Positions 41,671-59,883 of a stretch of 64,000 bases of DNA are shown here, in pieces. Positions within the stretch are counted from its first letter, which is position 1; the number at the start of each line of letters is the position of its first letter. This DNA is from a virus. Below the pieces are notes generated by a model, which was given only the letters and a program-made list of their open reading frames with translations, searched no databases and was not told where the DNA came from. A program made the position numbers and the translations under genes. Location of the stretch: positions 1 through 64,000 of IMG/VR virus record IMGVR_UViG_3300030004_000003; one strand, 5' to 3'.

Positions 41671-43501
41671 CGCGCCAGAGGCGCTCCAGGCCGTTGAAAA
41701 GGCCATGTGGCATGTCTTGGCTCCTACGCCGAGTCGGCCTGTATGGCAGTTCTTGGAGGATCATGCCTACCTGACCGAGACGCAAAGTTCCTCGCCGGGG
41801 CAGTTTAGGACGACTTCGCGGCCCTACATGAGGGAACCGCTTGATTGCTTCCGGGATAAACGCATTACGGATCTGGCGCTCTGTTTTGGTACTCAGACAG
41901 GGAAAACCACAATCGTGATCGGTGGGGCGGCCTGGAAACTCTGTAACGATCCCATGAACGCGCTGTGGGTGATGCCAAACACTGACCTGGCATCGTCGTT
42001 TTCTAAATCCCGCTGGATCCCCTTCATTGATTCGATTGATCCGCTTCAGAAGCAGAAATCAACCGATCGGAAGCTTTTTGCCACACTGGAGCAACATTTT
42101 TCCCGAGCGATCCTGAATTTTGTTGGATCCAACTCCCCGGCCAACGTGTCCTCCCGTCCCGCAGGGCTGCTTCTAGTCGATGAAACTGACAAACTGGGGC
42201 AGAAGACGGAAAAGGAGGCAGGGGCACTCCAGAACGCCGAAGAGCGCTCTAAAACCTTCCCCTACCCACTTAGGGTTAAGACCAGTACGCCCACCACGGT
42301 TCATGGCGATATTTGGCAGGAATTTCTCCGGGGGGATCAGCGGTACTTCTTCGTCCCCTGTCCTCATCCTAACTGCGGAAAGAAAATTCAACTCAAGTGG
42401 GGTCAGGTAAGGTGGTGGGAGCACGATGCCTCGGAGAGTAAAACAAACGGGGACTGGGATGAGGAGAAGGTGCGTAAAAATACCTACTACCGCTGCCAGG
42501 AGTGCGAAGGGAAGATCTACGACCATCAAAAGGAAATGTTGTTGGCTGGTGGTGAATGGATCCCGACGAATCCTAACTCACTTATTGGCCGCAGGAGCTA
42601 CCATTTGAACAGTCTCTACGCGCCGCTGAAGGAGTGTAACTGGGGTCTATTGGCCGTGAAGTGGATCCAGAGCAAAACGAGCCTCACTCGGCGGCAGGCG
42701 TTCATTAACTCAACACTGGCGGAGCCTTACGACGACGAGCGTTCTGTCGATGACGATCCGATTAATACGGTGATCTACACTACCTCAGATCTTCCCACTG
42801 ATCGGATTCCGATCATGACGGTCGATGTGCAGGAGAATCATTTTTGGACCATCATCCGCGACTGGAGCAATCCGAAGCTTCCAGGTGGTCAGCAGAGTTG
42901 GCTGATGCATGAGGGGCGCATCGAGACTCCTGAGGAATTGGAAGCTCTCCAGGCCAAGTATGGCGTGGAGGCGAAGCGTGTAGGTCTCGACATGGCTCAC
43001 CGTCCAAACAAGGTCGGGGCGCTTCTGGTAAAAAACGGATGGCGTGGACTCTGGGGTAGCGACAAGGCGGGATTTATTCACTCCCTTGGAAATGGGAACA
43101 AGGTTATCAAAGAATACTCACCGGTCCAATACCGTGATCCTCACTTGGGAACGGTTCATCAGAGCGAACAGAACAACAAGGCGATGTTCGTCTATTGGGC
43201 AAACGATCGGATCAAGGATCGTCTGGAAGTGCTTCGATACGAAGATCCGCCGCGCTGGCATGTGCATAACAACATCTCGAAGGATTACGTCCATCAGATG
43301 AATAGTGAGCGGCGGGAGGTGAAGACCTATCGCATGACTGGCCGCAAGGCGTATTACTGGAAGCGGATTCGGAAGGCGAATCACCTCTTTGACTGCGAAT
43401 CAATGCAGATTGTGATGGGGCTGATCGGGGGTGTTATTCATGACGACGCGGATCACGCCGCCTCCCAACAGGCATTCAAGCTGGACGATCAGAAGGCATG
43501 A
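41654..43501 (+). CDS. Terminase large subunit, lambda gpA-like
   Basis: I take ATG 41654; an in-frame TTG at 41633 is possible. The 615-residue product has Walker A GTQTGKTT near residues 79-86 and Walker B LLLVDETDK near 172-180. A GpA-type zinc-binding insertion follows (CPHPNCGKK, YRCQECEGKI). The C-terminal nuclease domain includes ITVDVQENHFW and VGLDMAHRP, with Asp residues for metals. It translocates and cuts DNA during packaging. Its 3' end meets the end of the opposite-strand island, with 26 bases of overlap. Confidence 0.92.
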   Translation: MPRQCDAPEALQAVEKAMWHVLAPTPSRPVWQFLEDHAYLTETQSSSPGQFRTTSRPYMREPLDCFRDKRITDLALCFGTQTGKTTIVIGGAAWKLCNDPMNALWVMPNTDLASSFSKSRWIPFIDSIDPLQKQKSTDRKLFATLEQHFSRAILNFVGSNSPANVSSRPAGLLLVDETDKLGQKTEKEAGALQNAEERSKTFPYPLRVKTSTPTTVHGDIWQEFLRGDQRYFFVPCPHPNCGKKIQLKWGQVRWWEHDASESKTNGDWDEEKVRKNTYYRCQECEGKIYDHQKEMLLAGGEWIPTNPNSLIGRRSYHLNSLYAPLKECNWGLLAVKWIQSKTSLTRRQAFINSTLAEPYDDERSVDDDPINTVIYTTSDLPTDRIPIMTVDVQENHFWTIIRDWSNPKLPGGQQSWLMHEGRIETPEELEALQAKYGVEAKRVGLDMAHRPNKVGALLVKNGWRGLWGSDKAGFIHSLGNGNKVIKEYSPVQYRDPHLGTVHQSEQNNKAMFVYWANDRIKDRLEVLRYEDPPRWHVHNNISKDYVHQMNSERREVKTYRMTGRKAYYWKRIRKANHLFDCESMQIVMGLIGGVIHDDADHAASQQAFKLDDQKA

Positions 43502-43706
43502 TTTTTTTGATAAGAGCGGTGTGATCGTCGAATCCGGACCCCTTAACCCATGCGATTTTTCCTCTCGTGCTGCGTGGGAGAAGGATGATGCGCTCTGGTG
43601 AGATGAGCTTTTTTATCAGTGCTTTCTGTGCCGGGCTTGCCTTTGGGATAAAAAATGTCCCGGTTGGTTTCATGGGCTGATCGCACCAATCAGAGATCTC
43701 ACTCAT
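43476..43706 (-). CDS. Last gene of the inverted island, small basic protein
   Basis: A 76-residue Lys/Ile/Pro-rich protein (ASPAQKALIKKLISPERIIL). It starts in an ATGA overlap with the upstream island gene and its end overlaps the end of the large terminase gene tail to tail. Function unknown. Confidence 0.5.
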   Translation of the reverse strand: MSEISDWCDQPMKPTGTFFIPKASPAQKALIKKLISPERIILLPRSTRGKIAWVKGSGFDDHTALIKKIMPSDRPA

Positions 43707-43900
43707 GGTTTTTGCGTGAAGGGAATATAGGGTTTATCACAGCAGCAGCCTGGGGCGTCTCGGTATGCTGATCCGCACCCGCAGAGGCCAAGTTTTAGCC
43801 ATTCGGTGTAAGTCATAATAATAGGATTTCCCTTATTCTCTTCATTGAATTTTCGGAGCTTCGCCTGATGCTCTATATGTTTTTCAAGTTCGGTGCTCAT
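43703..43900 (-). CDS. Small Cys-rich protein
   Basis: A 65-residue protein: a charged helix (KHIEHQAKLRKFNEENKG) followed by LCGCGSAYRDAPGCCCDKP, which has five Cys and may bind metal. ATGA overlaps on both sides. Function unknown. Confidence 0.5.
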   Translation of the reverse strand: MSTELEKHIEHQAKLRKFNEENKGNPIIMTYTEWLKLGLCGCGSAYRDAPGCCCDKPYIPFTQKP

Positions 43901-44139
43901 GCCTTTGGTGTGGATGGGAAAAAGTGCTCACCGAGGTGATAGACTCCCTCGATGAACATCTCGCCGAAATGGCGGTATCCGACCATGCCGAGCGGGATAG
44001 CTGTGGTGACCAAGGTGGCACCGAGGAAGAGGAGTTTATTATCTCCCTTGGGTGGTAGCACCACGGTATCCACGGCAACAGTGACGGCGCGGGGCTTGGA
44101 TTTTGTGTGTCGGGGTTTTCGAGGGGTGGTTGTTTTCAT
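43897..44139 (-). CDS. Small protein with hydrophobic segment
   Basis: An 80-residue protein with a basic N-terminus (TTTPRKPRHTKSKPRAVTVA), then KLLFLGATLVTTAIPLGMVG, one possible membrane helix. ATGA overlaps on both sides. Function unknown. Confidence 0.5.
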   Translation of the reverse strand: MKTTTPRKPRHTKSKPRAVTVAVDTVVLPPKGDNKLLFLGATLVTTAIPLGMVGYRHFGEMFIEGVYHLGEHFFPSTPKA

Positions 44140-44324
44140 TTTTGATGGGGCTGATTGGCGAGATGGGTCTCGGCTAGGGAAATCTCATCCATGGCCCTGT
44201 TAAGAGCCTCGCGTGTTTTGGGATCGAGATTGCGCGCCTGATCGGTGATGGAGGAAATAGCTTCCTTTGCTCTGTCGATCTGGTGGTTCGCGGCAATTCG
44301 ATCTAGTCTGGATATGGGTATCAT
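44136..44324 (-). CDS. 62-residue helical protein
   Basis: The ATG at 44324 is chosen because it forms an ATGA overlap with the gene upstream; a longer frame to 44390 lies inside that gene. The product is nearly all helix (HQIDRAKEAISSITDQARNL, TREALNRAMDEISLAETHLA). Function unknown. Confidence 0.5.
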   Translation of the reverse strand: MIPISRLDRIAANHQIDRAKEAISSITDQARNLDPKTREALNRAMDEISLAETHLANQPHQK

Positions 44325-44929
44325 TGTTCGGGCGGGTAGTAGCAGAAGCCGGTGCGGATGGCGGCGAGCTCGGGGTAGTATTTCCAGCACTTACCTTCGG
44401 CGATAATGAAGTGAGTGGCGGCGATGGTGTCTGGAGACGCGCCGTTGTATTTGGCGACCTCGCCTTCCATCCAGCTTACGATCTCGGGATGGAGCGGGAG
44501 CTTTCCATCTGCGATCGCCTCGCTAAGGGCGTCTTTTACGGAAAAAGGTATCGCAACCTCAGTGATCTCCTTTGGAGCCTCTCCGGCCAATCTTGGAGCC
44601 GGATCATTGCTTAGAATAGATCGTTCCAGATCTCGGCTGATCGCCTCTGGAGATTTATTGGTCTTGCCGGTGAGTTCATCCAGGATGATTCCGGATTCGA
44701 GTTCGGCGGGGGATTGCTCGGGAGGGTGTTCGTCGTTGGGCATGGAGGGCGGTGGCGTCCATCCTAGCGCGATGAGGGCGTTTCTAACAGCCTGATCCTT
44801 GGCGGTGCAATAGTGTTTCATGAACTTCTCTCCTGCTCGTCCTTCGAGGATCTCAATCTCGCCCTTTTCGCGGTCGATTGTTGTGTGGAAGATGATTTTT
44901 GGGAGGAAGGGTGTTTGGGGTTGGTTCAT
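44321..44929 (-). CDS. Unrecognised island protein
   Basis: A 202-residue protein. A strand-rich N-terminus (KIIFHTTIDREKGEIEILEG) is followed by a Pro/Glu-rich linker and a helical C-terminal domain (FSVKDALSEAIADGKLPLHP, IVSWMEGEVAKYNGASPDTI). ATGA overlaps on both sides. Function unknown. Confidence 0.55.
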   Translation of the reverse strand: MNQPQTPFLPKIIFHTTIDREKGEIEILEGRAGEKFMKHYCTAKDQAVRNALIALGWTPPPSMPNDEHPPEQSPAELESGIILDELTGKTNKSPEAISRDLERSILSNDPAPRLAGEAPKEITEVAIPFSVKDALSEAIADGKLPLHPEIVSWMEGEVAKYNGASPDTIAATHFIIAEGKCWKYYPELAAIRTGFCYYPPEQ

Positions 44930-45180
44930 GAGTGAGTGAAGGTGGTGGTCTTCTTTTTAGTTTCGTATGCGATTCCGGAGCACATCAGCAGTATCTGAGC
45001 GCCGAGTTTTTTATCTGCCTTGTTCTTGCCATTCAGGGCCATTTCCTTTGCTTGAAGCACTAGGTCTCCCCAAGCTCCGTGACGCTCTGAAAAGGAGGGA
45101 ATTTGATCACAGGCGCGCCGTGCCGTTTGTTCGACGCTGGTGCGATCTTCGATAAAATCGTCGATGGAGAACGAGTTCAT
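44926..45180 (-). CDS. Small acidic/basic helical protein
   Basis: An 84-residue protein (FSIDDFIEDRTSVEQTARRA, LVLQAKEMALNGKNKADKKL). Its start is preceded by one copy of the 22-bp repeated island element at 45192-45213, only eleven bases from the ATG. This suggests an internal promoter or regulatory point. Function unknown. Confidence 0.5.
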   Translation of the reverse strand: MNSFSIDDFIEDRTSVEQTARRACDQIPSFSERHGAWGDLVLQAKEMALNGKNKADKKLGAQILLMCSGIAYETKKKTTTFTHS

Positions 45181-45191
45181 TTCAAAGATAG

Positions 45192-45213
45192 GGGAATAAG
45201 GCGTAAGAGATTC
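45192..45213. promoter_or_regulatory. Island element, copy C
   Basis: Twenty-two bases matching copies at 52847-52868 and 52914-52935 except for two positions (CC changed to GG). It lies in the short gap upstream of the island gene starting at 45180, on the promoter side for minus-strand transcription. Confidence 0.6.
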
Positions 45214-45216
45214 GAT

Positions 45217-45540
45217 TTAAGGAATCTGAAATCCATCATCATCCAAGTTCCCATCTGGGAAAGCCCAAGTTCCCTCGCAATCGATTCGAAGATAGCGGAG
45301 ACCTTGTTCTTTCATGGCGCGATGGAGGGATATGAAATACTCGCTGAATCCCGCTACTTTGAGTTCCTTGATGAAATTTTCAAACTCTTCATCCTCATGC
45401 TTTTGATAAATCAGGTATCCGTATTCGGATCTAAAGAGGCAATTTCCTTCTTCTTTATCAAGGAGGAGGGCGTCATTTTTGGTGATGTCTCCCGTGGAAC
45501 ATTCTCCGATCGTGTCGATTTGGGCGATGGTGGCTTTCAT
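45217..45540 (-). CDS. Unrecognised island protein
   Basis: The start at 45540 makes an ATGA overlap with the upstream gene. The 107-residue product is acidic with SEYGYLIYQKHEDEEFENFI and LRYLRIDCEGTWAFPDG, consistent with a small alpha-beta fold. Function unknown. Confidence 0.5.
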   Translation of the reverse strand: MKATIAQIDTIGECSTGDITKNDALLLDKEEGNCLFRSEYGYLIYQKHEDEEFENFIKELKVAGFSEYFISLHRAMKEQGLRYLRIDCEGTWAFPDGNLDDDGFQIP

Positions 45541-45842
45541 GATCGAGCACTCCATATTGTTCCTTCGTCTTCTGTGGTAATGGATCCATCGGGGTGGATG
45601 TCGCACGCGGCAACCCATTCTTCGAGTTCAAAATTCAGTTCATCGAACTGGCGATCTCCATCGAGAAACTCTTGCAAATGGGCAATGTGATCGGTGATCA
45701 ATGCAAGCTGCGCTTCCTTCTCGGTGTCAAAGGTTCTGGGGATGGATTTCTTCCCTTGAAGACTCATCCAAGAGGATTTTACACCTCTCTCGGTGCGTTC
45801 AAGAATGATCCAAGTGTGGATCACGGGTCTTTCTGGATTCAT
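45537..45842 (-). CDS. Unrecognised island protein
   Basis: A 101-residue protein with VIHTWIILERTERGVKSSW, TFDTEKEAQLALITDHIAHL and an acidic tail. It is followed by ATGA coupling to the next island gene and preceded by a 39-base gap. Function unknown. Confidence 0.5.
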   Translation of the reverse strand: MNPERPVIHTWIILERTERGVKSSWMSLQGKKSIPRTFDTEKEAQLALITDHIAHLQEFLDGDRQFDELNFELEEWVAACDIHPDGSITTEDEGTIWSARS

Positions 45843-45881
45843 TGTGTGTTGAGGGTTGGCAGAATAGGGGCGAATTATTTT

Positions 45882-46562
45882 TTAGTTTTCGATGGTCAGC
45901 AAGATGGTGCCAATGCCGGTGCCTTCGGATTGGAATTCCCCGGCCGGGATGGTCTCCCAGTGCGAGGAGAGGGGTTTGAGTTGCTCAAGCCGGTGGCGGG
46001 TGTCCATGCAGAGGGCTGCCAGGCGTCCACCTGGGCGGAGGAACTTGCGGGCATGGAGGATGTGGGCAATGTCGCTGCGCATGTGGAACGGGGGGTTCAT
46101 GGCGATACAATCAAAGGTTTCAATGTCATCCTGGCTCATCGTTAGAAAGTTGCGCTGTTTAATGATGACGCCAGTGCGGTTCTGAACAAAGAGTTCCCCG
46201 GCGCACCGTGGTGCGATTTCGACCGCAGTGACTTCCGATGGCTTGTAGGGTGCGATGGCATCGAGAATCCGGCCAAGGCCCGCTGACGGCTCCAGAATAC
46301 GCTCTCCGCCTGCGAGTCCGAGAAGGGCAACAAGTCGTGCGGCCAGTGAGATGGGCGTCTGGAAAAGCTGATAGGTGGAAACTGCCCTGGGGGCGGTGCC
46401 GTTCTCATGCCGGTTCCGGATCGTGTCGAAGCGACCGCGCAACTCCTCCTGCTCGTAACGGGCGGCGTCATTCTCCATCCGGAGTTCATGGAGGCGATGG
46501 AAAGGCGCGTCGAAGTGCGGCTTATTCATGATAGGCGAAGGCCGATCGTCGGTGATGATCAT
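45882..46562 (-). CDS. DNA methyltransferase, N6-adenine type by NPPF motif
   Basis: A 226-residue protein with S-adenosylmethionine-binding motif I ILEPSAGLGRIL at about 89-100, an acidic residue in VTAVEIAP (motif II), DCIAMNPPFHM at about 151-161 (motif IV with NPPF) and HILHARKFLRPGGRLA. NPPF/NPPY methyltransferases mostly modify adenine N6; some members act on RNA or protein. It has no visible specificity domain. It overlaps the DUF3560 gene by ATGA, so the two are probably co-expressed. It may protect phage DNA from restriction. Confidence 0.8.
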   Translation of the reverse strand: MIITDDRPSPIMNKPHFDAPFHRLHELRMENDAARYEQEELRGRFDTIRNRHENGTAPRAVSTYQLFQTPISLAARLVALLGLAGGERILEPSAGLGRILDAIAPYKPSEVTAVEIAPRCAGELFVQNRTGVIIKQRNFLTMSQDDIETFDCIAMNPPFHMRSDIAHILHARKFLRPGGRLAALCMDTRHRLEQLKPLSSHWETIPAGEFQSEGTGIGTILLTIEN

Positions 46563-48202
46563 GCGGTGACGAGTTGAAGTGATGGTGTTTTGACCGCATC
46601 CCAGACGGCGGAGTGGAGTGGCTTTTGAGGCTTGTCGGTGAGGATGATGACGCGGGAGGGAACATGGTAGTGTCCATCGCCGCCGTCTCCACGGGTTCGG
46701 CGGACTTGGCAGACTTCTTGGCCATACTTGCTGCGGCCTTTATCGAGGGAGGTGTAGTGTAGTCCGCACTCATGTCCTCCTGGGAAGACTTGCCGGGTTC
46801 CTGCTGCACAATAAGAGCCTTTGGAGTTGGCGGAATAGGTCGCCTGGGTGGTTCGCAGGATGGTGGAAGGTTTGAATTCTCCGTCGCATCTTCCATGTCG
46901 CCGAATTTCACTTTCTTCCCATTCCTCTTTTTCGTGGGAATTCCAGAGAGACTGGAGGCGTTGGGCGTCCTCGTCGGTCGGGTTGATGAGAGGAATGGTT
47001 TCCGCTTTGGGTGCGGCGGCTTTTGCGGCTTTCCGCTTGGCAAGGAACTCGGCGAGTTCCTCCTCAGTCGGCGGCCGATAGACATCGGCCGCCAGGCGCT
47101 CGACTTCGATGGTATGGGAAAGAATCCTGCCGATGCCGTCGGGGAAGGGATTTCCATAGTGGTTGGTGAAGGATGGCTTGTTATCCTGCACGAGCACGGA
47201 GACAACGCGTCCGGTTTTGCTCGACTTATTGACCTTCTGGATCTGGCGACTTCCCAGGAATCCTCCCGGGATCATCTCCAGATTACCGGCGCGGCCGCCT
47301 TGGGCTTCGAGCATCTGATTCTCGTAGGCGATCCTCAATTTAAGATGGCGGATCGTGGTTGAAATACTGGTTGTTTCCCAGCCTTCGGAATCTGGCGCGT
47401 GATGCGTGCTCAAATAGTGGGCGGCATAGTCGGCGAGGGAAGGCGGGTTTTCTCCCTTTTGATGCTCAAAGTAGTAGGCGTGGGGAGCTTCGGGGTTACA
47501 CGGATGGGCGTGTTTTCCATAACCAGCGATGATGTCGATGAGGTCTTTCTTGGCGCGATTTGCGTCTCCTCCGTAGGCGCGTGTGGCTGCGATGGCCGTG
47601 ATAGCTCCTTCGGGATCTGCTGCAATTTCCTGCACTCTGAGAAAATGAGAAGCGTATTGCTCCTGGGTCTTTTCGGCTGCCCGCAGATCGGATTCCAGAA
47701 CCTTGATGCGGCCCATGCGGACATCGGGTCGGGATTTGTAGAGGGCGTGGCTGATGACGGCCGCTGTACGGCGCGTCCAGTATTCGGCCTTGTCCCAAGC
47801 GTCGGTGGCGCGGGTTCCAATTCGGTCATGACGGGCCGCCGCTTTCTCTGCGCGCTTCTCGCTCTGGAAGCCGTGAGCGGTCGGTTGGCTTTCGTAGCGA
47901 TCAGCGTGACCGATTGCCTCGTCCTGCCGCTTGTCGCGGTATCCTGCGAAGCGCTCGGCACGATCGGCGGCGCGTTCCTCCGGACCCATGTCCTCATCGT
48001 AGATAATGTCGGAGTAGGTCAGAGCGGTGTTCCTTCGTTCTGGTGTCCAAGTTGCGACAAAATCACCTCCTCCAGCTTCGCGTTGCTTGAAGAGGGCTTT
48101 CCATCCTTGGGATTTGAGTTTGAGGTACTCGTCGCGAGGAACCCGACCGATGTAGAGCCGGAGCTTATTATCCTCGGGTGAATAGGTGGCGTATTGTTCC
48201 AT
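46559..48202 (-). CDS. DUF3560-domain protein
   Basis: A 547-residue protein, the largest in the island. Its N-terminal 60 residues (TYSPEDNKLRLYIGR) are followed by the DUF3560 signature: RADRAERFAGYRDKR analogue, HGFQSEKRAEKAAARHDRIG, DKAEYWTRRTAAVISHALYK and RPDVRMGRIKVLE. The central section includes NPFPDGIGRILSHTIEVERL. The final 150 residues contain His/Cys-rich parts (AGTRQVFPGGHECGLHYTSL). DUF3560 proteins occur on phages, plasmids and islands and their role is unknown. Coupling to a methyltransferase suggests a DNA modification or anti-restriction context. Confidence 0.8.
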   Translation of the reverse strand: MEQYATYSPEDNKLRLYIGRVPRDEYLKLKSQGWKALFKQREAGGGDFVATWTPERRNTALTYSDIIYDEDMGPEERAADRAERFAGYRDKRQDEAIGHADRYESQPTAHGFQSEKRAEKAAARHDRIGTRATDAWDKAEYWTRRTAAVISHALYKSRPDVRMGRIKVLESDLRAAEKTQEQYASHFLRVQEIAADPEGAITAIAATRAYGGDANRAKKDLIDIIAGYGKHAHPCNPEAPHAYYFEHQKGENPPSLADYAAHYLSTHHAPDSEGWETTSISTTIRHLKLRIAYENQMLEAQGGRAGNLEMIPGGFLGSRQIQKVNKSSKTGRVVSVLVQDNKPSFTNHYGNPFPDGIGRILSHTIEVERLAADVYRPPTEEELAEFLAKRKAAKAAAPKAETIPLINPTDEDAQRLQSLWNSHEKEEWEESEIRRHGRCDGEFKPSTILRTTQATYSANSKGSYCAAGTRQVFPGGHECGLHYTSLDKGRSKYGQEVCQVRRTRGDGGDGHYHVPSRVIILTDKPQKPLHSAVWDAVKTPSLQLVTA

Positions 48203-48269
48203 AAAGTGGGAAGGTAAAATGTGGGAAAGTGGAAAGGTCGAAGGTCAAAAGACGATGGACGAAGGGGTG
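48203..48269. repeat. Purine-rich spacer with GGAAAG/GTCGAAGGTC units
   Basis: Sixty-seven bases between two island genes, made of repeats such as GTGGGAAAGTGGAAAGGTCG. Similar short runs occur at about 49558-49588 and 53078-53100 and inside the starts of genes at 20134, 25702 and 27047. Confidence 0.4.
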
Positions 48270-48506
48270 TTAATCTTTGGCTTCCGGGAGCGCGTCGAAG
48301 CGCTTCCGGGATTTGATGGGTTGGGTGGTGATGCGGTCGAGGTGATCGCCGTCGAGGGTGAGGTGGCAGCCGAGCTTGTTGGCTCGTGCTGTGATCTGGC
48401 GCACCGGGAAGGATTCATTGATCGGCTTCACGGGAATGTGCAGGTAGCACGGAATGACGCGGTACTTGATGGGCATAAAAGGTGCGTGGGAACGCGGCTT
48501 AGTCAT
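48270..48506 (-). CDS. Unrecognised small island protein
   Basis: A 78-residue protein from ATG 48506. It contains YRVIPCYLHIPVKPINESFP and ITARANKLGCHLTLDGDHLD, a plausible small alpha-beta fold. A minus-strand terminator lies upstream, so it may need its own promoter in the 70 bases between. Function unknown. Confidence 0.45.
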   Translation of the reverse strand: MTKPRSHAPFMPIKYRVIPCYLHIPVKPINESFPVRQITARANKLGCHLTLDGDHLDRITTQPIKSRKRFDALPEAKD

Positions 48507-48575
48507 TCTCGCCACGGGCGAGAAGTCCGAGCGTCAACAGATGATCGGATGACTGATCCGGGAGGATCGGCAGAC

Positions 48576-48599
48576 AAAAAAACCGCTCCGAAGAGCGGC
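48576..48599 (-). terminator. Intrinsic terminator (minus strand)
   Basis: Read on the minus strand, CCGCTC-TTCG-GAGCGG forms a six-base-pair stem with a stable UUCG loop, directly followed by seven T residues. It lies 30 bases after the end of the 108-residue island gene and would separate two transcription units of the island. Confidence 0.85.
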
Positions 48600-48628
48600 T
48601 GTAAAAGGGGGTAGGGTGAAAGGTGGCG

Positions 48629-48955
48629 TTAGAGAGTCATGGGGATGAGTGGGGTGATGCTGACTTCTTCCATCACGGTGTCGCCTTCCAGGTCTTCTGT
48701 GAGGCGGTTGAGCAACAGAATGTGATTGTCCTTCACTTCGACGGTTTGATTGAGTCGTTCATCAAAGTCGTAAATCAGGTTGGATTCCGTGTGGTCGGGA
48801 TCGTCTGGATCTGGCGTCACCACATTCAGAAAAACATGCCCGTCCTCGCCGGTCTCGTTTTCGGTATGGTGATAACGGACATAAGTTCCATCGACTTCGA
48901 CGGCTGCTGCGCCAAAAAGGATCTCGATGGCGGCGGAGAGGGTGATGGTTTTCAT
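48629..48955 (-). CDS. Unrecognised acidic island protein
   Basis: A 108-residue protein from ATG 48955. It has a short hydrophobic start (LSAAIEILFGAAAVEVDG), then YVRYHHTENETGEDGHVFLN and an acidic DPDDPDH run. It is the last gene before the terminator. Function unknown. Confidence 0.5.
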   Translation of the reverse strand: MKTITLSAAIEILFGAAAVEVDGTYVRYHHTENETGEDGHVFLNVVTPDPDDPDHTESNLIYDFDERLNQTVEVKDNHILLLNRLTEDLEGDTVMEEVSITPLIPMTL

Positions 48956-48959
48956 GGTC

Positions 48960-49550
48960 TTACAATTTCGAGGCTGGGATGAGTGAACAGTCGGTGCATT
49001 TGTTGTCCTTGTGGAGCTGTTCGTCGGATTTTCCGCAGTCGATGCACTCGACTCCGTGTGCAAGGTAACTGTTGATGGCTGTGGTGAGTTCAATGCTGGC
49101 CTCGTCGGAGAGGTCGAGTTCCGACAGGATGGATTCCCTCATGGAGTCGTCATCAAGTGCAACGCGCGCAATCTCGGCAAGCTGTACGGACTGCTCGTCG
49201 TTGAAGGGTGAGTGGGCGAAGCCGTCGGATTTCTGTTCTGCGGTGACGCTGGCTCTCTCGATGATTTCTAAAATAGCTTCACAGTCTTCGGATGGGATAT
49301 TTTCGCTCTCGCCTATGTAGTCCTCGATCTCATCGAGGGCGGTTCTGGAAAACCCAGAGGCCGATGTGACGCTGGCGCTTTTAACGGTGCAGAACTGGTC
49401 GAGTTGATGAGAGAATCCCATGTCCTCAGCGGCCTCTAGGGCCCGCTGGATGGCATCCTCGGCGGCGGTTTTCAAATCTGCATCCGTGAAAGGCATTTGC
49501 TCTGGATCATCGGGCGTGATCTCGATCTCAACGGGAATGATGAATTTCAT
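48960..49550 (-). CDS. Acidic island protein with C-terminal zinc ribbon
   Basis: A 196-residue protein, very acidic. It opens with IPVEIEITPDDPEQMPFTDA, followed by helices, and ends with CIDCGKSDEQLHKDNKCTDC, a four-Cys zinc ribbon. It lies four bases upstream of the next island gene. Function unknown. Confidence 0.55.
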   Translation of the reverse strand: MKFIIPVEIEITPDDPEQMPFTDADLKTAAEDAIQRALEAAEDMGFSHQLDQFCTVKSASVTSASGFSRTALDEIEDYIGESENIPSEDCEAILEIIERASVTAEQKSDGFAHSPFNDEQSVQLAEIARVALDDDSMRESILSELDLSDEASIELTTAINSYLAHGVECIDCGKSDEQLHKDNKCTDCSLIPASKL

Positions 49551-49583
49551 GGATGACGGGGTAAAAAGTGGGAAAGTAAAAGG

Positions 49584-50255
49584 TCAGACAACAAATCGCT
49601 CGCCGTCCTCGGTGAATTCGTAGTCGTTGCACCTGATCGACTCGTCTATTTGTTCGTCGGCGTTATGGTATTCATACTCTTTTTCAAGGGTGCGATAGAG
49701 CCAGTCCATAAGATCCCAAAGGGCCTGTTGTGCCAGTTTGAATGCCGCCTCTTGGGCTGGCCACAAAGCTTCATTCTCCGCCAGATTGTTATCTTCGTTA
49801 TCAAAGCATCGCTCCTCCATATTCACGGATTTTGCGAAGTAGTATCGGTAGTTATGGGTGATCTCGATGCTTAGGAAGGGCTGATCTTTCGCAGCTTTTT
49901 CGATTGCCTCGGCGATCCGGTGGAGATCCTCATCGAGGGGTGCAAATTCCCTCAGTTTTCCGGGCTGGACGGCACTCGCTCTCCATGTCCCCTCAAAGCA
50001 GGCTCCATCTCCCTGAGACCAAAATCCGCTCCACCAGATGCTCGGTTCCTGTCGGGTTTTTCCGTTACCAAGCCGGACTGAGTGAAAGGCGATGTCGATG
50101 CCTAGCAGTGGGGCGATCTGGCAGAGATCTTCAGTGACACTTTCGGAATAAAAGGTATCTCCCTCGCTGGATTTTCTCCACCAGTTCCGGGCGGTTTCCT
50201 TGGCGGCATCGGTGAGTTCATCAAACTCATAAACTTGGATTTCTACGGTTTTCAT
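49584..50255 (-). CDS. Conserved phage protein (VYEFDELTDAAKE family)
   Basis: A 223-residue acidic protein. VYEFDELTDAAKETARNWWR at residues 8-27 followed by SVTEDLCQIAPLLGID and IWWSGFWSQGDGACFEG is the signature of a phage family of unknown function that is sometimes labelled antitoxin-like. ITHNYRYYFAKSVNM and a helical C-terminal region complete it. ATGA coupling to its upstream neighbour. Confidence 0.65.
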   Translation of the reverse strand: MKTVEIQVYEFDELTDAAKETARNWWRKSSEGDTFYSESVTEDLCQIAPLLGIDIAFHSVRLGNGKTRQEPSIWWSGFWSQGDGACFEGTWRASAVQPGKLREFAPLDEDLHRIAEAIEKAAKDQPFLSIEITHNYRYYFAKSVNMEERCFDNEDNNLAENEALWPAQEAAFKLAQQALWDLMDWLYRTLEKEYEYHNADEQIDESIRCNDYEFTEDGERFVV

Positions 50256-50851
50256 ACGGGTTGTTCCTCCGGGGTGAACCAGCCGTGGTTTGCGGCTTCA
50301 TAGACGCAGGGGGTGCCCTCAATGGTCTCGGTCAGTTCGTCCTCCAGGATGTCGAATTGCGTCAGATAGGTGATCAGGAGAGTCTCAAGCTGGTTGTGGT
50401 CCCAGTCGCGCACGGGCTTCTGCCAGAGCGGATCGTCCAGATCATTGGAGTAGAAGGAACAGAATCCGCTCCGGTGCGAGTGGCGGTCGAATATGACCGA
50501 GCGGAGGGTTTCCTCCTTGATGTTTTCAGCAATCCGTTCGATCTGCTCTACAGGGATCAGGACAAAGCAGATGTCAGTGGAAAAATTGTAAAACTTCGGG
50601 CTTTTCAGACTCTCCAGTTCCATCGGAATGCCGGTTTCACTGGAGAAAGCGGAGACCCATCCTTTGGTGATGGCCTCGGCGGCAAGTAACCAGGAGAAGC
50701 GTTTATCGACATCGCTCCAGTCCTGGCCGGTGGATTCCATCTCAGACTCGATTTCCTGATCCATCAGGCCATCCAGATAGGAATTGTAGAAGCCTGGGAA
50801 CCAAGGGAGGACAACGAGGAGCTTGTCGGGATCTTTAGAAAGGTTGCTCAT
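50252..50851 (-). CDS. Conserved phage protein (LPWFPGFYNSYLD family)
   Basis: The start at 50851 gives an ATGA overlap. The 199-residue product has VVLPWFPGFYNSYLDGLMDQ near its N-terminus, SPKFYNFSTDICFVLIP in the centre and an acidic C-terminal half. I recognise the first motif from uncharacterised phage proteins that often neighbour the preceding family. It may act together with its two neighbours. Function unknown. Confidence 0.6.
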   Translation of the reverse strand: MSNLSKDPDKLLVVLPWFPGFYNSYLDGLMDQEIESEMESTGQDWSDVDKRFSWLLAAEAITKGWVSAFSSETGIPMELESLKSPKFYNFSTDICFVLIPVEQIERIAENIKEETLRSVIFDRHSHRSGFCSFYSNDLDDPLWQKPVRDWDHNQLETLLITYLTQFDILEDELTETIEGTPCVYEAANHGWFTPEEQPV

Positions 50852-51381
50852 GCCACTCCTCCTTCGCAGACGCTGATGGCTGATTTTTCGAGGGCGTTGT
50901 AAAATGCTTCGGTGCAAGCCTCTTCCCATGCGGTACAGATCTCCTCCTGAAGATCCTGAACATCTTCGTCTTCGAGTTCCGTTTCGGTGAAGAGTTTTGC
51001 CATTAGTGATTGTGGAGTTTCATCACCAGCCCATTCCCCGCTGAGATTAGGGAGTTTGAAGGCATCTATTACCACAGGATCGCCGTCGCGGTAGCCATCA
51101 AGAAATTTCCTCGCAGCTTCCTTTTCTCCACGGGTGGCGCGACCTCCCCAGAGATCCTGAATATGCCATTCGGCGGCATTGACTCCGGCGGTGATTCCGT
51201 CATTTCTGGCCAAAATAAGCACGTCATTGGTGCGCGACTCGATTTTGGACGCTACCCAGTCATCGTATCCCAGCCGGGTGTCGTCGTTGGCTATTTCGTA
51301 GCGCCAGTCCAACTTTGGGAAGCTGGGATGCTCTTCAGTATCGGAGTAGTGAGGAATAGTGGGTGCGTCGGCGTAGCTCAT
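50848..51381 (-). CDS. Conserved phage protein (LDWRYEIANDDTRLGYDDW family)
   Basis: A 177-residue acidic protein. KLDWRYEIANDDTRLGYDDW near residues 22-41 is a motif seen in small phage proteins of unknown function. It is followed by LILARNDGITAGVNAAEWHI, and the C-terminus is helical (EEICTAWEEACTEAFYNALE). ATGA coupling on both sides. Confidence 0.6.
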   Translation of the reverse strand: MSYADAPTIPHYSDTEEHPSFPKLDWRYEIANDDTRLGYDDWVASKIESRTNDVLILARNDGITAGVNAAEWHIQDLWGGRATRGEKEAARKFLDGYRDGDPVVIDAFKLPNLSGEWAGDETPQSLMAKLFTETELEDEDVQDLQEEICTAWEEACTEAFYNALEKSAISVCEGGVA

Positions 51382-51482
51382 GGTGTAGGGTGGTAGAGGG
51401 TGACGATTCGGACGGTTAGGGCCGTCAGGATGAATCCGAGCGCGCAAAGGAGTCGGATGAGGGCGTAGTGACGTTGAGTCAT
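51378..51482 (-). CDS. 34-residue membrane peptide
   Basis: A very short gene that overlaps both the upstream and downstream genes by ATGA. It encodes one membrane helix (LIRLLCALGFILTALTVRIV) with an Arg/His-rich front. Both overlaps match the coupling used throughout the island, which is the main reason to accept it. Function unknown. Confidence 0.55.
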   Translation of the reverse strand: MTQRHYALIRLLCALGFILTALTVRIVTLYHPTP

Positions 51483-51706
51483 CGGATTTTCACCAGTTGG
51501 CCCATCTGAATGCTCCAGTAGTGGGAGAGATGGCCTCTGAGGGAATCAAGGGTGCGCTGGTTGCCGAGCGGCTTTCCAAGGCGCATTCCGTGAATGTCTC
51601 GCCAATACCGGTGCTCCTCTTTCGGACGGCTGAAATGCAGTGTGCCGAGACACCCTAGTCGGGCGAGGCGGTAGAGACGGTGGAAGGTTTCCCGTGAAAG
51701 GTTCAT
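51479..51706 (-). CDS. Small basic island protein
   Basis: A 75-residue Arg/Leu/His-rich protein (ETFHRLYRLARLGCLGTLHF, GKPLGNQRTLDSLRGHLSHY). It overlaps the 34-residue membrane peptide gene by ATGA. A nucleic-acid-binding role is possible from charge. Function unknown. Confidence 0.5.
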   Translation of the reverse strand: MNLSRETFHRLYRLARLGCLGTLHFSRPKEEHRYWRDIHGMRLGKPLGNQRTLDSLRGHLSHYWSIQMGQLVKIR

Positions 51707-51746
51707 GGGTGGGCAATAAGTCGGGGATTACTTCTTTGCTGATGAG

Positions 51747-51905
51747 TCAACGGCTCCGCTTTTTCCGTCTGAGAAACCTGGCGGCACGGCGTTCTAGTTT
51801 GATCTGGTAGTCGTCGCGATCTCCCCAGGGCTCACACTCCTCCTTGGCGGAGTCCATGAGGTGCAAGGAAGGGTTCTGAATGGGTCTGATGGATGGCATA
51901 TACAT
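51747..51905 (-). CDS. 52-residue basic protein
   Basis: I take ATG 51905, since an earlier in-frame start at 51962 would lie inside a terminator hairpin. The product is Pro/Ser at the front and ends in LERRAARFLRRKKRSR. No Shine-Dalgarno sequence is evident. First gene of this island transcription unit. Function unknown. Confidence 0.45.
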   Translation of the reverse strand: MYMPSIRPIQNPSLHLMDSAKEECEPWGDRDDYQIKLERRAARFLRRKKRSR

Positions 51906-51939
51906 GGTAAAAAAATGTCGGATGGTTTGATCTAGGCAC

Positions 51940-51976
51940 AAAAAAGCCGGGAGGATTTTCACCCTCCCGGCTTTTT
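51940..51976. terminator. Bidirectional intrinsic terminator
   Basis: GCCGGGAGG at 51946-51954 pairs perfectly with CCTCCCGGC at 51963-51971 around an 8-base loop. The stem is flanked by six A residues on the left and five T residues on the right, so it can terminate both strands. It ends the transcript of the 257-residue gene at 52767 and separates it from the rest of the island. Confidence 0.9.
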
Positions 51977-51993
51977 CTTCTCCGGTGGAATTT

Positions 51994-52767
51994 TTAGGCT
52001 AGAGCGGTCATTGAATTTTTCAGGGAAGCGGACAGGGAAACGCTTTCCCCTATCTGGAGATATTCCCGGAGCGTTTGATATTGAACCCGGCGCGCTCCTT
52101 CCTCCAGTGGCTGCCTTGTGAGGATGGAAAGGGGATTTTTTCCGGCTGCGATATTTCGCACAATCTTTAGTTTCTCCTTCAGATTAAAGGATGCTTTCCG
52201 GCTTTGATCGTGCTTCGCTGATTGAAAAATTGCGCTTCGAAGTGTGCGCAATTGATCGGCCAGGCGAAGCCGTTCCGCTTGCCTCTTCTCCTCGTGATCG
52301 TGTGGAATGATGAGCTTGTGAGGGTGGAACTGTTGCACTTCGTCCAGGTTGTTTTCTCGTGAAACATCATGGTTGCCGCCGTTCATTCTTAGAAGGTCGC
52401 GCACTGCTCGGAAAATCTGGGCGATTCCTTCAGGCTGCTTGTGAATGCCTTGCGCCACCATAGCAAAGACGGTTTGCGCTGCGTCCTGTTTGTCCTGAAG
52501 GGAAAGGACGCGCTCGGGTCTCTGGTTTAATGACCGCTTGCGCGTGAATTTGCTCGCCTGCTGCTTCCCCTCTGGGAATTCGATTCGATGGATCACGGCG
52601 CTTGCCAGTCGAGCGCTTTCTTCGTCGGGCGCGTGAAGGTAGGAAGGGAGCGTTTCCGTGATTTCCTCCTCTTCTCTGTTTTTCAATCCGTCCACCTTGC
52701 GCTTTTTATGCGTCAAATTAGTGAATTGAATATGCGTTTTTACTGTGTTTGATTTAGTGCCTTTCAT
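51994..52767 (-). CDS. Unrecognised basic protein, possible island regulator
   Basis: A 257-residue protein set apart in its own transcription unit at the head of the island. It is rich in Lys, Arg and Gln (HIQFTNLTHKKRKVDGL, HDHEEKRQAERLRLADQLRT, NLKEKLKIVRNIAAGKNPLS). A section near its C-terminus (VQYQTLREYLQIGESVSLSA) could be a DNA-binding helix pair. No Shine-Dalgarno sequence is visible. Its isolated position next to repeated elements suggests a regulator, which is inference. Confidence 0.5.
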   Translation of the reverse strand: MKGTKSNTVKTHIQFTNLTHKKRKVDGLKNREEEEITETLPSYLHAPDEESARLASAVIHRIEFPEGKQQASKFTRKRSLNQRPERVLSLQDKQDAAQTVFAMVAQGIHKQPEGIAQIFRAVRDLLRMNGGNHDVSRENNLDEVQQFHPHKLIIPHDHEEKRQAERLRLADQLRTLRSAIFQSAKHDQSRKASFNLKEKLKIVRNIAAGKNPLSILTRQPLEEGARRVQYQTLREYLQIGESVSLSASLKNSMTALA

Positions 52768-52846
52768 AGGGTTAAAGACTAAGGTTTATCTCTCACTTTA
52801 TCAAGATCAAAAGATCATTATTCGATCACTTTCTCTCTATTATTAA

Positions 52847-52868
52847 GGGAATAACCCGTAAGAGATTC
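52847..52868. repeat. Island element, copy A
   Basis: A 22-base unit beginning GGGAATAACCCGTAAGAG, identical to copy B 67 bases away. Similarity to copy B extends to the left over about 16 more bases (TTTCTCTCTAT). Copy C is near 45192. Confidence 0.85.
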
Positions 52869-52913
52869 GACTCTTTCACTCTCTTTCATTCAATAATTTT
52901 TCTCTATAGATAG

Positions 52914-52935
52914 GGGAATAACCCGTAAGAGATTC
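52914..52935. repeat. Island element, copy B
   Basis: Identical over 22 bases to copy A. Together with copy C it shares the longer left flank GATAGGGGAATAA. Confidence 0.85.
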
Positions 52936-53194
52936 TCGGTCTAGCAACGTCTAACAATGCAATCTTACAAGCAAACAATAAACATACTTATACATAATTA
53001 TGTTTATGCGGTCGTCCGTTGTAATTAGGTGATCCTTTGATAAAACTAACCATGTTATTTTTATGCAGAGGAAGCTAAAGGGGAAGGCTGAAATCTAAAG
53101 GAGGATCGGCCATCGGCGATCTGATTCAGCTTTCAGCTTTCAGGTTTCATCCCTTATCGAATTCATCGGTTCGGTTGACTCCTGCCGTGTGGGT

Positions 53195-53464: not shown

Positions 53465-55192
53465 ATGAACTTCTTAGACCGCGCCATCGCTGCCGTTAAT
53501 CCAGAAGCCGGTTTTCGCCGGGCGGCCTATCGGGAGCGCATGAAAATGTTCAGCTATGACGCCGCTTCTCCTGGGAGGAAACGCGGCTCCTCCGGGGGTG
53601 CCTCCAAGAACGGTTCCTCTGAGAATTTTCGCGCGGCCCGGGATCGTATCGACATCATGTGGGACTCGCGGGATGTGGTCAGGAATTTTGGCATCCTGAA
53701 AGGGATTGTCGCCAGGATCGTTCAATACACGGTCGATCAGGTTCAATATAATTCCCAGACCGGTGACGATCAGGTCGATGGCCAGTATCAAGATTTCTTA
53801 ACAGAGTGGAGTGAGTCGGCCGACATCACTGGTCGCCACAGCCTGGCTGAACTCACCTGGATGGCCTTTTGGAGTGAATTGGTCGATGGAGACCACGGGT
53901 GGAACATGCTTGCCATGGATGGGGGTGATCCTCGCGCGATGCGAATCCAGCCGATCGAGGCGGACCGTATCGGCAATGTTCGCAACCCGGCTGAGACCAA
54001 CATGGGTAATAAGGTTGGCGGTATCACGGTGGACGACAAGGGGAGCCCTCTCTCCTATGACATCTACAAGCGTGATCGGCTCACGACTCAATACAGCTTT
54101 GATCAGGCCGTTCCTGCCCTGCAATTCCTTCACTTCTTTGATCCGCAGCGTGTCGATCAGTATCGGGGGGTTTCTGCGCTGGCGACAGCGATCGCTCCTG
54201 CCCGGGATCTCTATGAGATCTATGAGTTTGAGAAGCAGGCTGCCAAATGGCAGATCGGCCATGCCGGATTTATCGAACAGGCTGATCCCTACAATCCCAA
54301 CGATCCGAATGCTTGGAACGGTACGGCTCGTGGTGGTCGTGGAACTCCCGATACTACAGCGGGTGCTGGCCCTGGCATTATCGATATGGTGGCCGCAAAG
54401 GTCATCCGCCTCAACCAGGGGGACAAGGTGCAGTTTGCGCCTGGCACCAACCGGCCTAGCGGTGCTTTTATTTCGTTGGTTCAGACCATGATCAGGGAGA
54501 TCTGTTCCGGTACGCAAAATGGCTACCCTTACGGCTTCCTTTATGACATTTCGGAGCTCGGTGGCCATGGAAGCCGCGTCGAGGTGGCTCAAGCCATGCG
54601 CGGTATCACGCGGAACCAGGCGCGGATTACCCGTCAGGGGCTCAATCATGTGCGCGACATCGTGTTGGGTGGTGCTATTGCTGCCGGACTTCTTCCTGCT
54701 CATCCTCTCTGGCGTTCCGGTCGCTGGTCGTTTGGCGGTACGCTAACGGGTGACTTTGGCAACGACACAACCGCCAAGATCGCAGAACTGAATGCCGGGA
54801 TCGTCAATCTCTCGGATCTGATTTCCGACAAGGGCGGCAACTTCGAGCGCACGGTGCGCAAATCAGCCAGTGAAATCACCTACATGCAAAAGGTGGCTGC
54901 CGATACAGGGGTGCCTATCGAGCTCCTGACGGCGCGCCTTCCTGGTGCCTCGCAACTCCTTGCCGCCATGAATCAGCCGCCTCCTCCGCCTCCTGCGGGG
55001 CTTGTCGAGGCTGATATTGATGCCAAGCCGCTCCTGGAAATCCTGAAACAGGTAGGAGATGGCAAAATGGATCGGGAGAGTGGTGTCGCCGCGATCATCC
55101 AACTCTACGGAATCGCTCGATCTGAGGTGGAGAAAATGGTGCCTGACGCCGCACCCGCTTCAACTGCCACTCCAGTTCCTCCTAAAAAATGA
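53465..55192 (+). CDS. Portal protein, lambda gpB family
   Basis: A 575-residue protein of the lambda portal family. NFLDRAIAAVNPEAGFRRAA at the start, DSRDVVRNFGILKGIVARIV, FWSELVDGDHGWNMLAMDGG, LHFFDPQRVDQYRGVSALAT and QNGYPYGFLYDISELGGHGS are typical. It forms the dodecameric ring through which DNA passes. The C-terminus is Pro-rich (PPPPPPAGLVEADIDAKPLL). It overlaps the next gene by ATGA. Confidence 0.9.
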   Translation: MNFLDRAIAAVNPEAGFRRAAYRERMKMFSYDAASPGRKRGSSGGASKNGSSENFRAARDRIDIMWDSRDVVRNFGILKGIVARIVQYTVDQVQYNSQTGDDQVDGQYQDFLTEWSESADITGRHSLAELTWMAFWSELVDGDHGWNMLAMDGGDPRAMRIQPIEADRIGNVRNPAETNMGNKVGGITVDDKGSPLSYDIYKRDRLTTQYSFDQAVPALQFLHFFDPQRVDQYRGVSALATAIAPARDLYEIYEFEKQAAKWQIGHAGFIEQADPYNPNDPNAWNGTARGGRGTPDTTAGAGPGIIDMVAAKVIRLNQGDKVQFAPGTNRPSGAFISLVQTMIREICSGTQNGYPYGFLYDISELGGHGSRVEVAQAMRGITRNQARITRQGLNHVRDIVLGGAIAAGLLPAHPLWRSGRWSFGGTLTGDFGNDTTAKIAELNAGIVNLSDLISDKGGNFERTVRKSASEITYMQKVAADTGVPIELLTARLPGASQLLAAMNQPPPPPPAGLVEADIDAKPLLEILKQVGDGKMDRESGVAAIIQLYGIARSEVEKMVPDAAPASTATPVPPKK

Positions 55193-58100
55193 AGCCGTCG
55201 CCTGCTCAGATCGAAGCCGGGAACTATGCAAAGAAGCATCTTCGGATCTGCGGGCTCGACCTCTCGATTGAAAACCGAAAAGGGAGTGTCCGGAGTGGTA
55301 AAGGCAAGGATGGCAAAGAATGGCGTATTAAAATGCCGGTCGATTATGGATACATCAAGGGAACGCTTGGCCCTGATGGCGACCATGTGGACGTTTTTGT
55401 CGGCCCTGATCGGGATCTCACGAATGAATCCCCTGTCTGGGTGGTGAATCAGAAAAAGGATGATGGGAAGACCTTCGATGAGCACAAAGTTCTCCTGGGA
55501 TTTCCTGACATTGGGAGTGCCGTGGCGGCCTATCGGAATTCCTACGACATTCCGATGTTTGGCAATCTGGTGAAGATGTCGCTCCGGATGCTGAAGCTTC
55601 AGTTGCGCAATGGCAGACTGTGGCGACCGTTGAAAGAATTTGCAGGATTGCTTCCCAAAGGGTATTCCTTGCCAGAAGTCATTCATGAAAAACCCGCTGG
55701 TCCAACAATAGGACTCTATGAATATCCTAAGAAAACTCCTCGCTCGCCTGAATACAGTTCCTCAACCGGTTCTCAAGGCAATAACGACCTTTCCAAAGGA
55801 AAGTCCAATCGGGCAGCACCTCGAAAAAGAGAGGCAGGAGTTATCACCATCCCAAGGGAAGGATATTTTGCAGGGCAACTCCAGACCGGCGATGTCCCGG
55901 ATGGTGAACTTCGAGTATTAGCTCACAATGCTCGTCGCGGAGTTCTCAAGCATGAGATTGTCCACAGCATTTTAGATCAGAAAAGGGGCGGCGTTCCCGA
56001 CAGCGTGGCGGGATTTGCCAAAGAGGAGTTGGCTGCCCATAGCAAGCAATTCTTGGGAAAGAAATCCCCGCTTCTCGACAGGCCATTATCCAAACGGCTT
56101 GCCTCAGTAATCAGGGGCACTATTGCCAGCACGAAATTAGGAGTCAAAGCAAACGGGATTAAGAAATGGTTTGCGGATCCGTTGACGCGGGATCGAGTGG
56201 GTATGGCTCTGAAGACTTTCTCCGACCGAACTCCCTACTGCGATCCTCGGCAGTTTCCTGGTGAATCCGCTGCCCCTGTCTCTTCTGAGCGCCGCGATCT
56301 CCTCAAGAGCGGCATTATTGCTACGGGTGTCGCTGGTGGTGCCGGGCTTGCTGGGCTTGCTATGCGAGGATCTGTGAACAAGGCTCAAAAGGCAGATCTC
56401 CTCCGTGACGCTGTGAATAAGATCGTTGCTGCCCGCAAGGGGGCTAAGACCGCCGCACAAGCTGGCGCTGTCGCATCAGCCAAGGGTGCGCAGGATGCTT
56501 CCATTGAGGCTCAAAAGCTCCGCGTCTCCAGGATTCAGGGAGTCAAAAAAACAGATGCGCGTCTCGGTAAAGTGGGAAAATCCCTGGTCAAAAACGGGGC
56601 GCTCACTCCAGGCGAGGCCGCGACGGCTAAAACTGGATTTCGTTCTTCTCATGCTCGTTTGACCGGGTTCTCAGCCCGACTTCATCTTTTCGACGCCGCC
56701 GTGATCCGTGAGAAGCGTGACGGCCTCTCCAAGGCCAAGGATGCCGCTGTGCTGGCTGGTGGTCTCGGGGTGCTTGGTGCCTCCGCTTACGCTGGAATCA
56801 AGGCCCATGGAATCTCCAAGCTTGTGAAAGGGGAGATTCCCAAGGTATCCCGCGCGATCCGTCGCGCCGTGCCGCCAGTTGCCAAGAAAGCAAACGATCT
56901 TTTGGATGCCGGTAAGGCTGCTGCCGGTCAACTCCAAACCACGGCCAAGGAAGCCAATGAATCGGTTGGTCACTCCACGGCTGTCTATTCCGACATCGGA
57001 AAACTCTACAAACAGGCAAAAGGTGGCGTCTATAATCTTCTGCATCCGGTGAATACCGTCCGGGAGGTCAAATCGGCCTTCCGGGCGGGGTTGCGTGGCG
57101 AGGAAACCTACCCTACCAAGCCGCGCCCCAAGTGGGCGCTCTCCGCCAAGATAAAGACTCGTCTCAAGGAATTTGCTGATCGTTTGGAGACTTCCGAAGA
57201 GGGCGTTCCTTTAAATGGTCGGGTTGCGCACGATCGGTTTATCAAGCAGATCCATGAGGGTGATCTGGATCGTCGGGACCGCAATATCTCTCATGCTGGC
57301 GTTGCTGGTGCTCTGACTGGAGCGCTGGTGGCCAAGCCCGGCAAGCGTCTGATCGGCGCGGGTGCTGGTGCCGCTCTTGGTGGTGCCGGTGTGCTGGCAA
57401 TCCGTGCCATCACGGATCGTCATCGCGACATCTACGGTGATCGTCCCCGGTGGGCGAAGGATGCTGAAACTCTTCCTGCTGTGGCAGGTGCTGGTGCTGC
57501 GTTGGGGATTATTGGAAAGCGGGTACTCGCGGGCAAGCGTCTGAGTCGCGTCATTCGCCTAAAAACCTTTGATCTTCCCGATGATGATCAGCCTCCGATG
57601 AACCCCGCGTTGAAAGCCGGGCTTACGGGTGCTGTCGCCGGGGGGGTGATGGGATCTCTTCCTGCGTTCAAAGTGGGATCCAAGCTCGCTCCTTCACTGG
57701 GATGGATTGGGGCTGGTGCGGCCGGGATGGGTGCGCTTGTCGGTGGTGGCACCTACATTGGCGATAAAATCCTCGGGCCTGCGAAGCCGAATGAAGGCGC
57801 TCCTTTTACCAAGCGTGCCGCCATTGGTGGTGCATTGCTTGGAACGGCGGCAGGTGCGGGTGCAGTCCTTGCTGCCAAGAAGATTCCCGCAGTCTCAAAG
57901 TTTATTGATGGCTACGCTGATTTTCGTCCTGTGAATTTCATCAAAAATGCCTCCCTGCCTGCTGCCACGGCGGCTGGTGCCGGGGTTGGTGCTCTAGTGG
58001 GTGCTGATAAGGCTGGTGATGAAGGACAGCAGGTTGATGCGCTCAATTCGATTCAGAATCAGAAAAAGACTTTTGGGCGGCAGGTGAGGGGATTGCTCAA

Positions 58101-59808: not shown

Positions 59809-59883
59809 GTCAGGGTGGACAAACGGTAAGTCGCCGGGCTCATAACCCGGAGATTGAAGGTTCGATTCCTTCCCCTGCTACCA
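59809..59883 (+). tRNA. tRNA-Met (CAT), initiator-like
   Basis: A 75-base cloverleaf with encoded CCA. Acceptor strands GTCAGGG and CCCTGCT pair at five positions plus a G-U at 1-72 and a mismatch at 2-71. The D-stem is GAC/GTC, the anticodon stem is CCGGG/CCCGG with loop CTCATAA (anticodon CAT), and the T-arm is GAAGG-TTCGATT-CCTTC. Three consecutive G-C pairs at the bottom of the anticodon stem and A11-U24 in the D-stem are features of initiator tRNA. It lies between two small head-region genes. Confidence 0.85.

Follow-up and report, generated by a model that had tools for sequence, protein, structure and literature searches.

The 64,000-nucleotide stretch of viral DNA analysed here (the window) carries, between the large terminase gene terL and gpW, a block of 19 minus-strand open reading frames (i19 to i01, positions 43476-52767) that probably forms the early/accessory module of a temperate tailed phage, a non-structural unit transcribed leftward with an orphan DNA methyltransferase (MTase) and a DUF3560 protein as cargo. 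Comparison with related phages shows that the block is not peculiar to the window phage and represents the local version of a recurrent non-structural module, and its earlier reading as an independently regulated accessory cassette is largely supported. The source record, of which the window covers the greater part, is 66,892 bp long and has an exact repeat of 127 bp at its ends, which makes a complete genome, circular in its assembled form, probable. Contigs L002, L032, L085 and L087, from other samples, carry the block with 100% identity, so it is not a misassembly.

On one side of the block terS and terL are oriented rightward, terL ending at 43501, and on the other the head genes run rightward from gpW (start 53189) and the portal gene (start 53465) on. 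A preliminary description of this DNA had reported a 9.3-kb block of 20 opposite-strand genes chained by ATGA overlaps; the block and the chains are confirmed, with 4-nt stop/start overlaps at 9 of the 18 junctions, whereas the gene count is corrected to 19. At their 3' ends i01 and terL overlap tail to tail over 26 nt. Family matches (MTase, DUF3560, DUF5983 and the adjacent PHROGs 5162, 37559 and 11556) and leftward homologues in relatives support coding on the minus strand.

All on the minus strand, the genes begin with i19 (51994-52767), homologues of which stand first or near-first in seven relatives, and continue with i18 (51747-51905), a small protein that G002 and G005 also have, and i17 (51479-51706), which is without a family match. 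The three adjacent conserved families noted previously are borne out as i16 (50848-51381; PHROG 11556), i15 (50252-50851; PHROG 37559, with homologues in the blocks of G002, G005 and G010) and i14 (49584-50255; PHROG 5162, members of which sit under terminal-repeat features in several Caulobacter giant phages). Next come i13 (48960-49550), with a Cys4 zinc-ribbon-like C terminus judged by eye, and i12 (48629-48955), without a family match, and between i12 and i11 (48270-48506; a small protein with a homologue in the G004 block) lies a strong leftward intrinsic-terminator-like hairpin (48600-48581, minus strand). The DUF3560 protein i10 (46559-48202, 547 aa) and the class I SAM MTase i09 (45882-46562), joined by a 4-nt overlap, are followed by i08 (45537-45842; no family match), the DUF5983 protein i07 (45217-45540), i06 (44926-45180), i05 (44321-44929) and the four small overlapping genes i04 to i01 (43476-44324), among which i03 is shared with G002. 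Family matches in the window's own block comprise only MTase, DUF and PHROG families, with no mobility or satellite gene among them; replication-type genes belong to the relatives' blocks. Some features had been overstated: instead of several zinc ribbons, zinc-ribbon-like Cys motifs were seen by eye in one or two proteins (i13, i02); instead of several tiny membrane proteins, one small protein (i03) looks membrane-like by eye; and terminator-like sites, 15 against 13.8 in shuffles, do not exceed chance in number, though the leftward hairpin between i12 and i11 is a strong one.

TerL relatives were taken from viral contigs, and the records behind 14 were read. A block, mostly leftward, occupies the terL-gpW place in 12 relatives, and what had been pictured as an island inside the packaging/head module of this phage is thus a feature that nearly all close relatives have in this position. 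In the genomes that show both of its ends (G000, G002-G005, G008-G010 and G012) the block spans 9.7-27.3 kb, the intervals of 11.9-27.3 kb in G002-G005, G008-G010 and G012 being mainly leftward, and in G006, G007 and G013 the leftward genes run off the contig end after at least 16-25.6 kb. The block comparison used a leftward-only gene call, which imposes strand; in an unbiased call, the 11.5-kb interval of G011 is of mixed strand, as is that of G012, while G007, 97% of whose block genes are shared with G012, is cleanly leftward. In the TerL tree, the L106/L107/L112 lineage is the exception inside the block-bearing clade: terL lies 1.2-2.2 kb from gpW with a ligase-like gene between, and small minus-strand ORFs also occur in this interval in L106 and L107. 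Intervals from terL to gpW or portal are likewise short in more distant contigs, except for L127-like contigs (~5.3 kb), and in phages P8625 and Moulinsart, where the portal gene follows within about 1.2 kb of terL and no leftward block is present. Set against the block-bearing relatives, the L106 lineage and these outgroups show that terL followed by gpW/portal is the usual order, as the preliminary description had stated for lambda-like phages, and that the block is a clade trait, which one lineage has lost, reduced or never acquired.

The place of the block among relatives is fixed, but most of its genes are not, in agreement with the accessory nature proposed earlier. In the nearest relative, G002, homologues were found for 20 of 28 late genes, for 4 of 18 block genes (5 of 19 in another count), and for 2 of 29 genes in the other non-structural region of the window phage; the low sharing in both regions indicates that the block is not uniquely labile and that both non-structural regions turn over. 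The ends are steadier. Homologues of i19 occur in eight blocks, first or near-first on the gpW side, and those of i05, the most widely kept block gene, in 11 of 13 blocks near terL; homologues of block genes in general are almost confined to blocks. The larger blocks of relatives encode an SNF2 helicase, a sliding clamp, a ligase domain, AAA ATPases and ParB, together with a LuxR-type HTH family, PRTRC ParB and ThiF, Prok-E2_D and DUF1281, and those of G002, G005 and G010 consist mostly of small unknown proteins; few recognisable replication genes are present in the blocks nearest the window's. Given the replication-type genes of the larger relatives, together with the fixed place and end genes, the block reads as a leftward early/accessory module, for which we infer early timing. 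An integrase family match in 7 of 9 genomes suggests that the phage is temperate, and expression from the prophage would also be possible; in the window phage the integrase lies at 17.2 kb, outside the block. The 17.2-kb integrase frame sits under a longer plus-strand ORF.

New here is the conserved control region (52768-53188) from which i19 and gpW diverge; its repeats and palindrome support the independent regulation that had been suggested for the block. The palindrome ATAAACATAATTATGTATAAGTATGTTTAT (52978-53007; folding z-score -5.15), built around STTATnYATAASTATGTWTA, occurs once per genome at the same junction in 8 of 8 related genomes and is absent from shuffles. It also stands beside gpW in seven further loci (L092, L093, L096, L097, L099, L105 and L113), some of which are closely related to one another or to G012. 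The direct repeat, reported earlier as repeated elements and here found in three minus-strand copies against none in 100 shuffles, lies at 52897-52935 (copy 1, with a promoter-like GAA-N16-CCC-AT-rich layout) and 52830-52868 (copy 2), both upstream of i19, and at 45186-45213 (copy 3, just upstream of the start codon of i06, the first gene behind it). A phage-specific tandem repeat of 2-4 copies is present at the same place in 8 of 8 i19-bearing genomes, with a spacing that varies from 48 to 89 nt between phages, and G003, like the window, has a single copy inside its block (20190-20221). The repeat sequence differs from phage to phage, and in 7 of 8 repeat types it follows the layout GAA-N16-CCC and then AT-rich (the G009 repeat is without CCC), a pattern defined after inspection of the repeats and present in 0.56% of random 44-mers.

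Neither palindrome nor repeats were found in the block-less L106, L107 and L112. A distant pair, L175/L171, has the palindrome with a leftward unit upstream of terS, the first gene of which weakly matches the i19 profile (E 7e-5, seven-sequence search). Since tandem repeats precede a first gene not recognisably i19 in L105 and L121, and L093, L096 and L097 have the palindrome without the repeats, repeats, palindrome and i19 do not always go together. A scan of viral contigs with the palindrome also returned several unrelated, chance-like sites.

Sigma-70-type sites are no more frequent than chance, which implies another type for any promoter. The repeat copies keep their spacer within a phage, which is unusual for plain sigma promoters and is also expected of iterons or operators. 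N4-type hairpin promoters were considered and rejected, as the repeats fold no better than shuffles, and a search for a T7-like RNA polymerase gave no PF00940 match in the genome, with the control set silent too. The i19 product has no detectable family or fold by Pfam, PDB profile search or Foldseek, is predicted to be all-helical (low-confidence model), and is too diverged in alignment to serve a contig scan. An ECF-like sigma factor, prompted by eye by a DKQDVAQ-VF stretch, was rejected: neither Pfam, run on eight members, nor a PDB profile search, nor Foldseek with the low-confidence model gave a match to sigma regions 2 or 4. As a candidate, i19 could be the cognate regulator of the control region. 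For i05, a moderate-quality model gave no structural match, and its profile A2 found no match in other contigs in a search run without a positive control.

The DUF3560/MTase pair (i10 and i09), also confirmed from the preliminary description, matches in the same order a pair on the E. coli plasmid CP051820 (38% identity for i09, 34% for i10), an F-like plasmid in which it lies near ssb, ParB, psiB and psiA and shares its stretch with DUF1281. At least 5000 plasmid records match i09 and at least 5000 match i10. By sequence, i09 has motif I and an NPPF motif IV, as in orphan DNA N6-adenine MTases. No DUF3560 homologue was found in annotated phages or in the eight relatives searched, and the MTase has homology among relatives in G008 only; counter-restriction would therefore be cargo of the window phage and not the core of the module. 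The leading region is the part of a conjugative plasmid that enters first. Orphan MTases and anti-defence genes are described as abundant in such regions (PMC11541004); the accessible portion of that text does not name DUF3560. The pair would most likely protect phage DNA from restriction as it enters, at an early stage of infection, by modifying or shielding it. Of the DNA modification and counter-defence proposed earlier, the match to the leading-region pair stands, whereas the activity is one that we infer and most block genes are of unknown function.

That most block genes disarm host defences, making the block a dedicated anti-restriction island as in plasmid leading regions, is a tentative possibility. 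The F-like plasmid pair, the plasmid-type families in relatives' blocks (DUF1281, ParB, PRTRC) and the many small, fast-changing genes are what such an island would contain, but PADLOC matches the MTase alone, the relatives carry replication-type genes, and most block genes have no known function. The clamp, helicase, ligase and ParB genes of the relatives' blocks, with phage-specific direct repeats beside one fast-evolving gene, would instead fit a replication module in which the repeats are iterons, the palindrome is part of an origin and i19 is the initiator. We consider this unlikely in view of the repeat spacing, which varies between phages, the lone copies inside the blocks of the window and G003, the promoter-like layout, and the lack of a GC-skew switch near 53 kb. 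Insertion of a foreign satellite or transposable island would account for the break in the terL-gpW-portal order kept by P8625, Moulinsart and distant contigs, yet it is very improbable, given that the block holds this place in several diverged lineages, that no mobility or satellite gene is among its family matches, and that the integrase lies elsewhere.

As a leftward early/accessory module, the block would work as follows. The late genes point rightward, and the leftward module would start at the control region, head-to-head with gpW. From the tandem phage-specific repeats, as promoters or as start sites that depend on an activator, i19 and the genes that follow it may be transcribed, the third copy serving the distal genes i06-i01, and the palindrome, bound by a dimeric regulator, would probably set the balance between the leftward unit and the rightward transcription of gpW. 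Cargo would turn over by recombination between the steadier ends, i19 near gpW and i05 near terL, and in the window phage would include the orphan MTase and DUF3560 pair, shielding DNA early. It is conceivable, though doubtful, that the region is an undescribed transcription switch, in which i19 or another block protein would be a new phage-specific factor reading the tandem sites, so that each leftward module is privately controlled; the recognition part of the sites would diverge with each phage while the GAA...CCC/AT-rich frame and the palindrome stay fixed.

Our results define a recurrent site at which a clade of uncultivated phages houses a changing set of non-structural genes, and a control element with which modules of this kind can be located and compared. 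They also tie the DUF3560 and MTase pair of plasmid leading regions to a phage, so that a role for DUF3560 in entry protection, common to two kinds of mobile element, can be put to the test. TerL matches include P8625 and the Akkermansia phage Moulinsart, both of which have verrucomicrobial isolates as hosts, and a genome scan for the host gave one partial portal match, to a Spartobacteria MAG on a contig that looks mixed; together they point weakly to a host in the Verrucomicrobiota.

Among known systems, P8625 and Moulinsart have a homologous large terminase and differ in the portal gene about 1.2 kb after terL, with no leftward block. Phage orphan DNA methyltransferases likewise have an NPPF-type domain without a restriction partner, whereas i09 is short (226 aa), has no target-recognition domain that we could see, and is paired with DUF3560. 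Leftward early operons of temperate phages of the lambda PL type are non-structural and diverge from rightward transcription. The window block is similarly a leftward operon diverging from rightward transcription, with its own control region and variable accessory genes, but it sits within the packaging/head module, flanked by terL and gpW, and has no recognised N, repressor or antiterminator; the non-structural/DNA-metabolism genes of such operons are found in relatives' blocks, the window's own having the MTase and DUFs only. The leading region of F-like plasmids (PMC11541004) differs in that the phage is not conjugative, its block lying among head/packaging genes and not in an oriT context, that most cargo is unrelated, and that, unlike Frpo, the phage control repeats are tandem, phage-specific and fold no better than shuffles; what the two share is an orphan MTase next to DUF3560 in the same order and, in the relatives' blocks, the plasmid-type families DUF1281 and ParB.

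The control regions of the i19 genomes (the eight that carry a homologue of i19, the gene at the gpW end of the leftward block) contain on their gpW side, close to gpW, one to several ACGGACGG-like repeats, which possibly serve rightward transcription. The palindrome type, found beside gpW once in each of these genomes, occurs twice in a single unrelated contig (L168, 7895-7914; L177, 1168-1187), and a Dam-like methyltransferase ORF lies downstream of each of these sites.

In the head-gene region of the window, portal is followed immediately on its 3' side by a gene of 1249 aa (55189-58938), the product of which is possibly a multidomain protein of the polyvalent type; the gene is rich in Ala/Gly and its conservation among relatives is uneven. 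A tRNA-Met (CAT) gene is located within the same region at 59809-59883. Four other contig loci (L093, L094, L096 and L097) harbor an extra 6-7 kb between gpW and portal, an interval that the window lacks.

A Phage integrase family match on the minus strand of the window (17163-17561, in an open frame of 373 aa) is masked by a longer plus-strand ORF; such a match is present in seven of the nine genomes searched. The stretch holding a 546-aa ORF with matches to a macro domain, DUF7666 and DUF3060 (23871-25508) contains exact direct repeats of up to 89 nt.

In L164, a contig from a Spartobacteria MAG, a portal fragment at 71% and homologues of i05 and of the i03 family are adjoined by restriction-modification-like genes; the contig is possibly mixed, or else this is possibly a remnant. 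Lastly, alignment A6 revealed PRTRC ParB and PRTRC ThiF family matches as well as Prok-E2_D in the blocks of four related genomes (G004, G008, G009 and G012), which are parts of a plasmid-type PRTRC set within a phage module.
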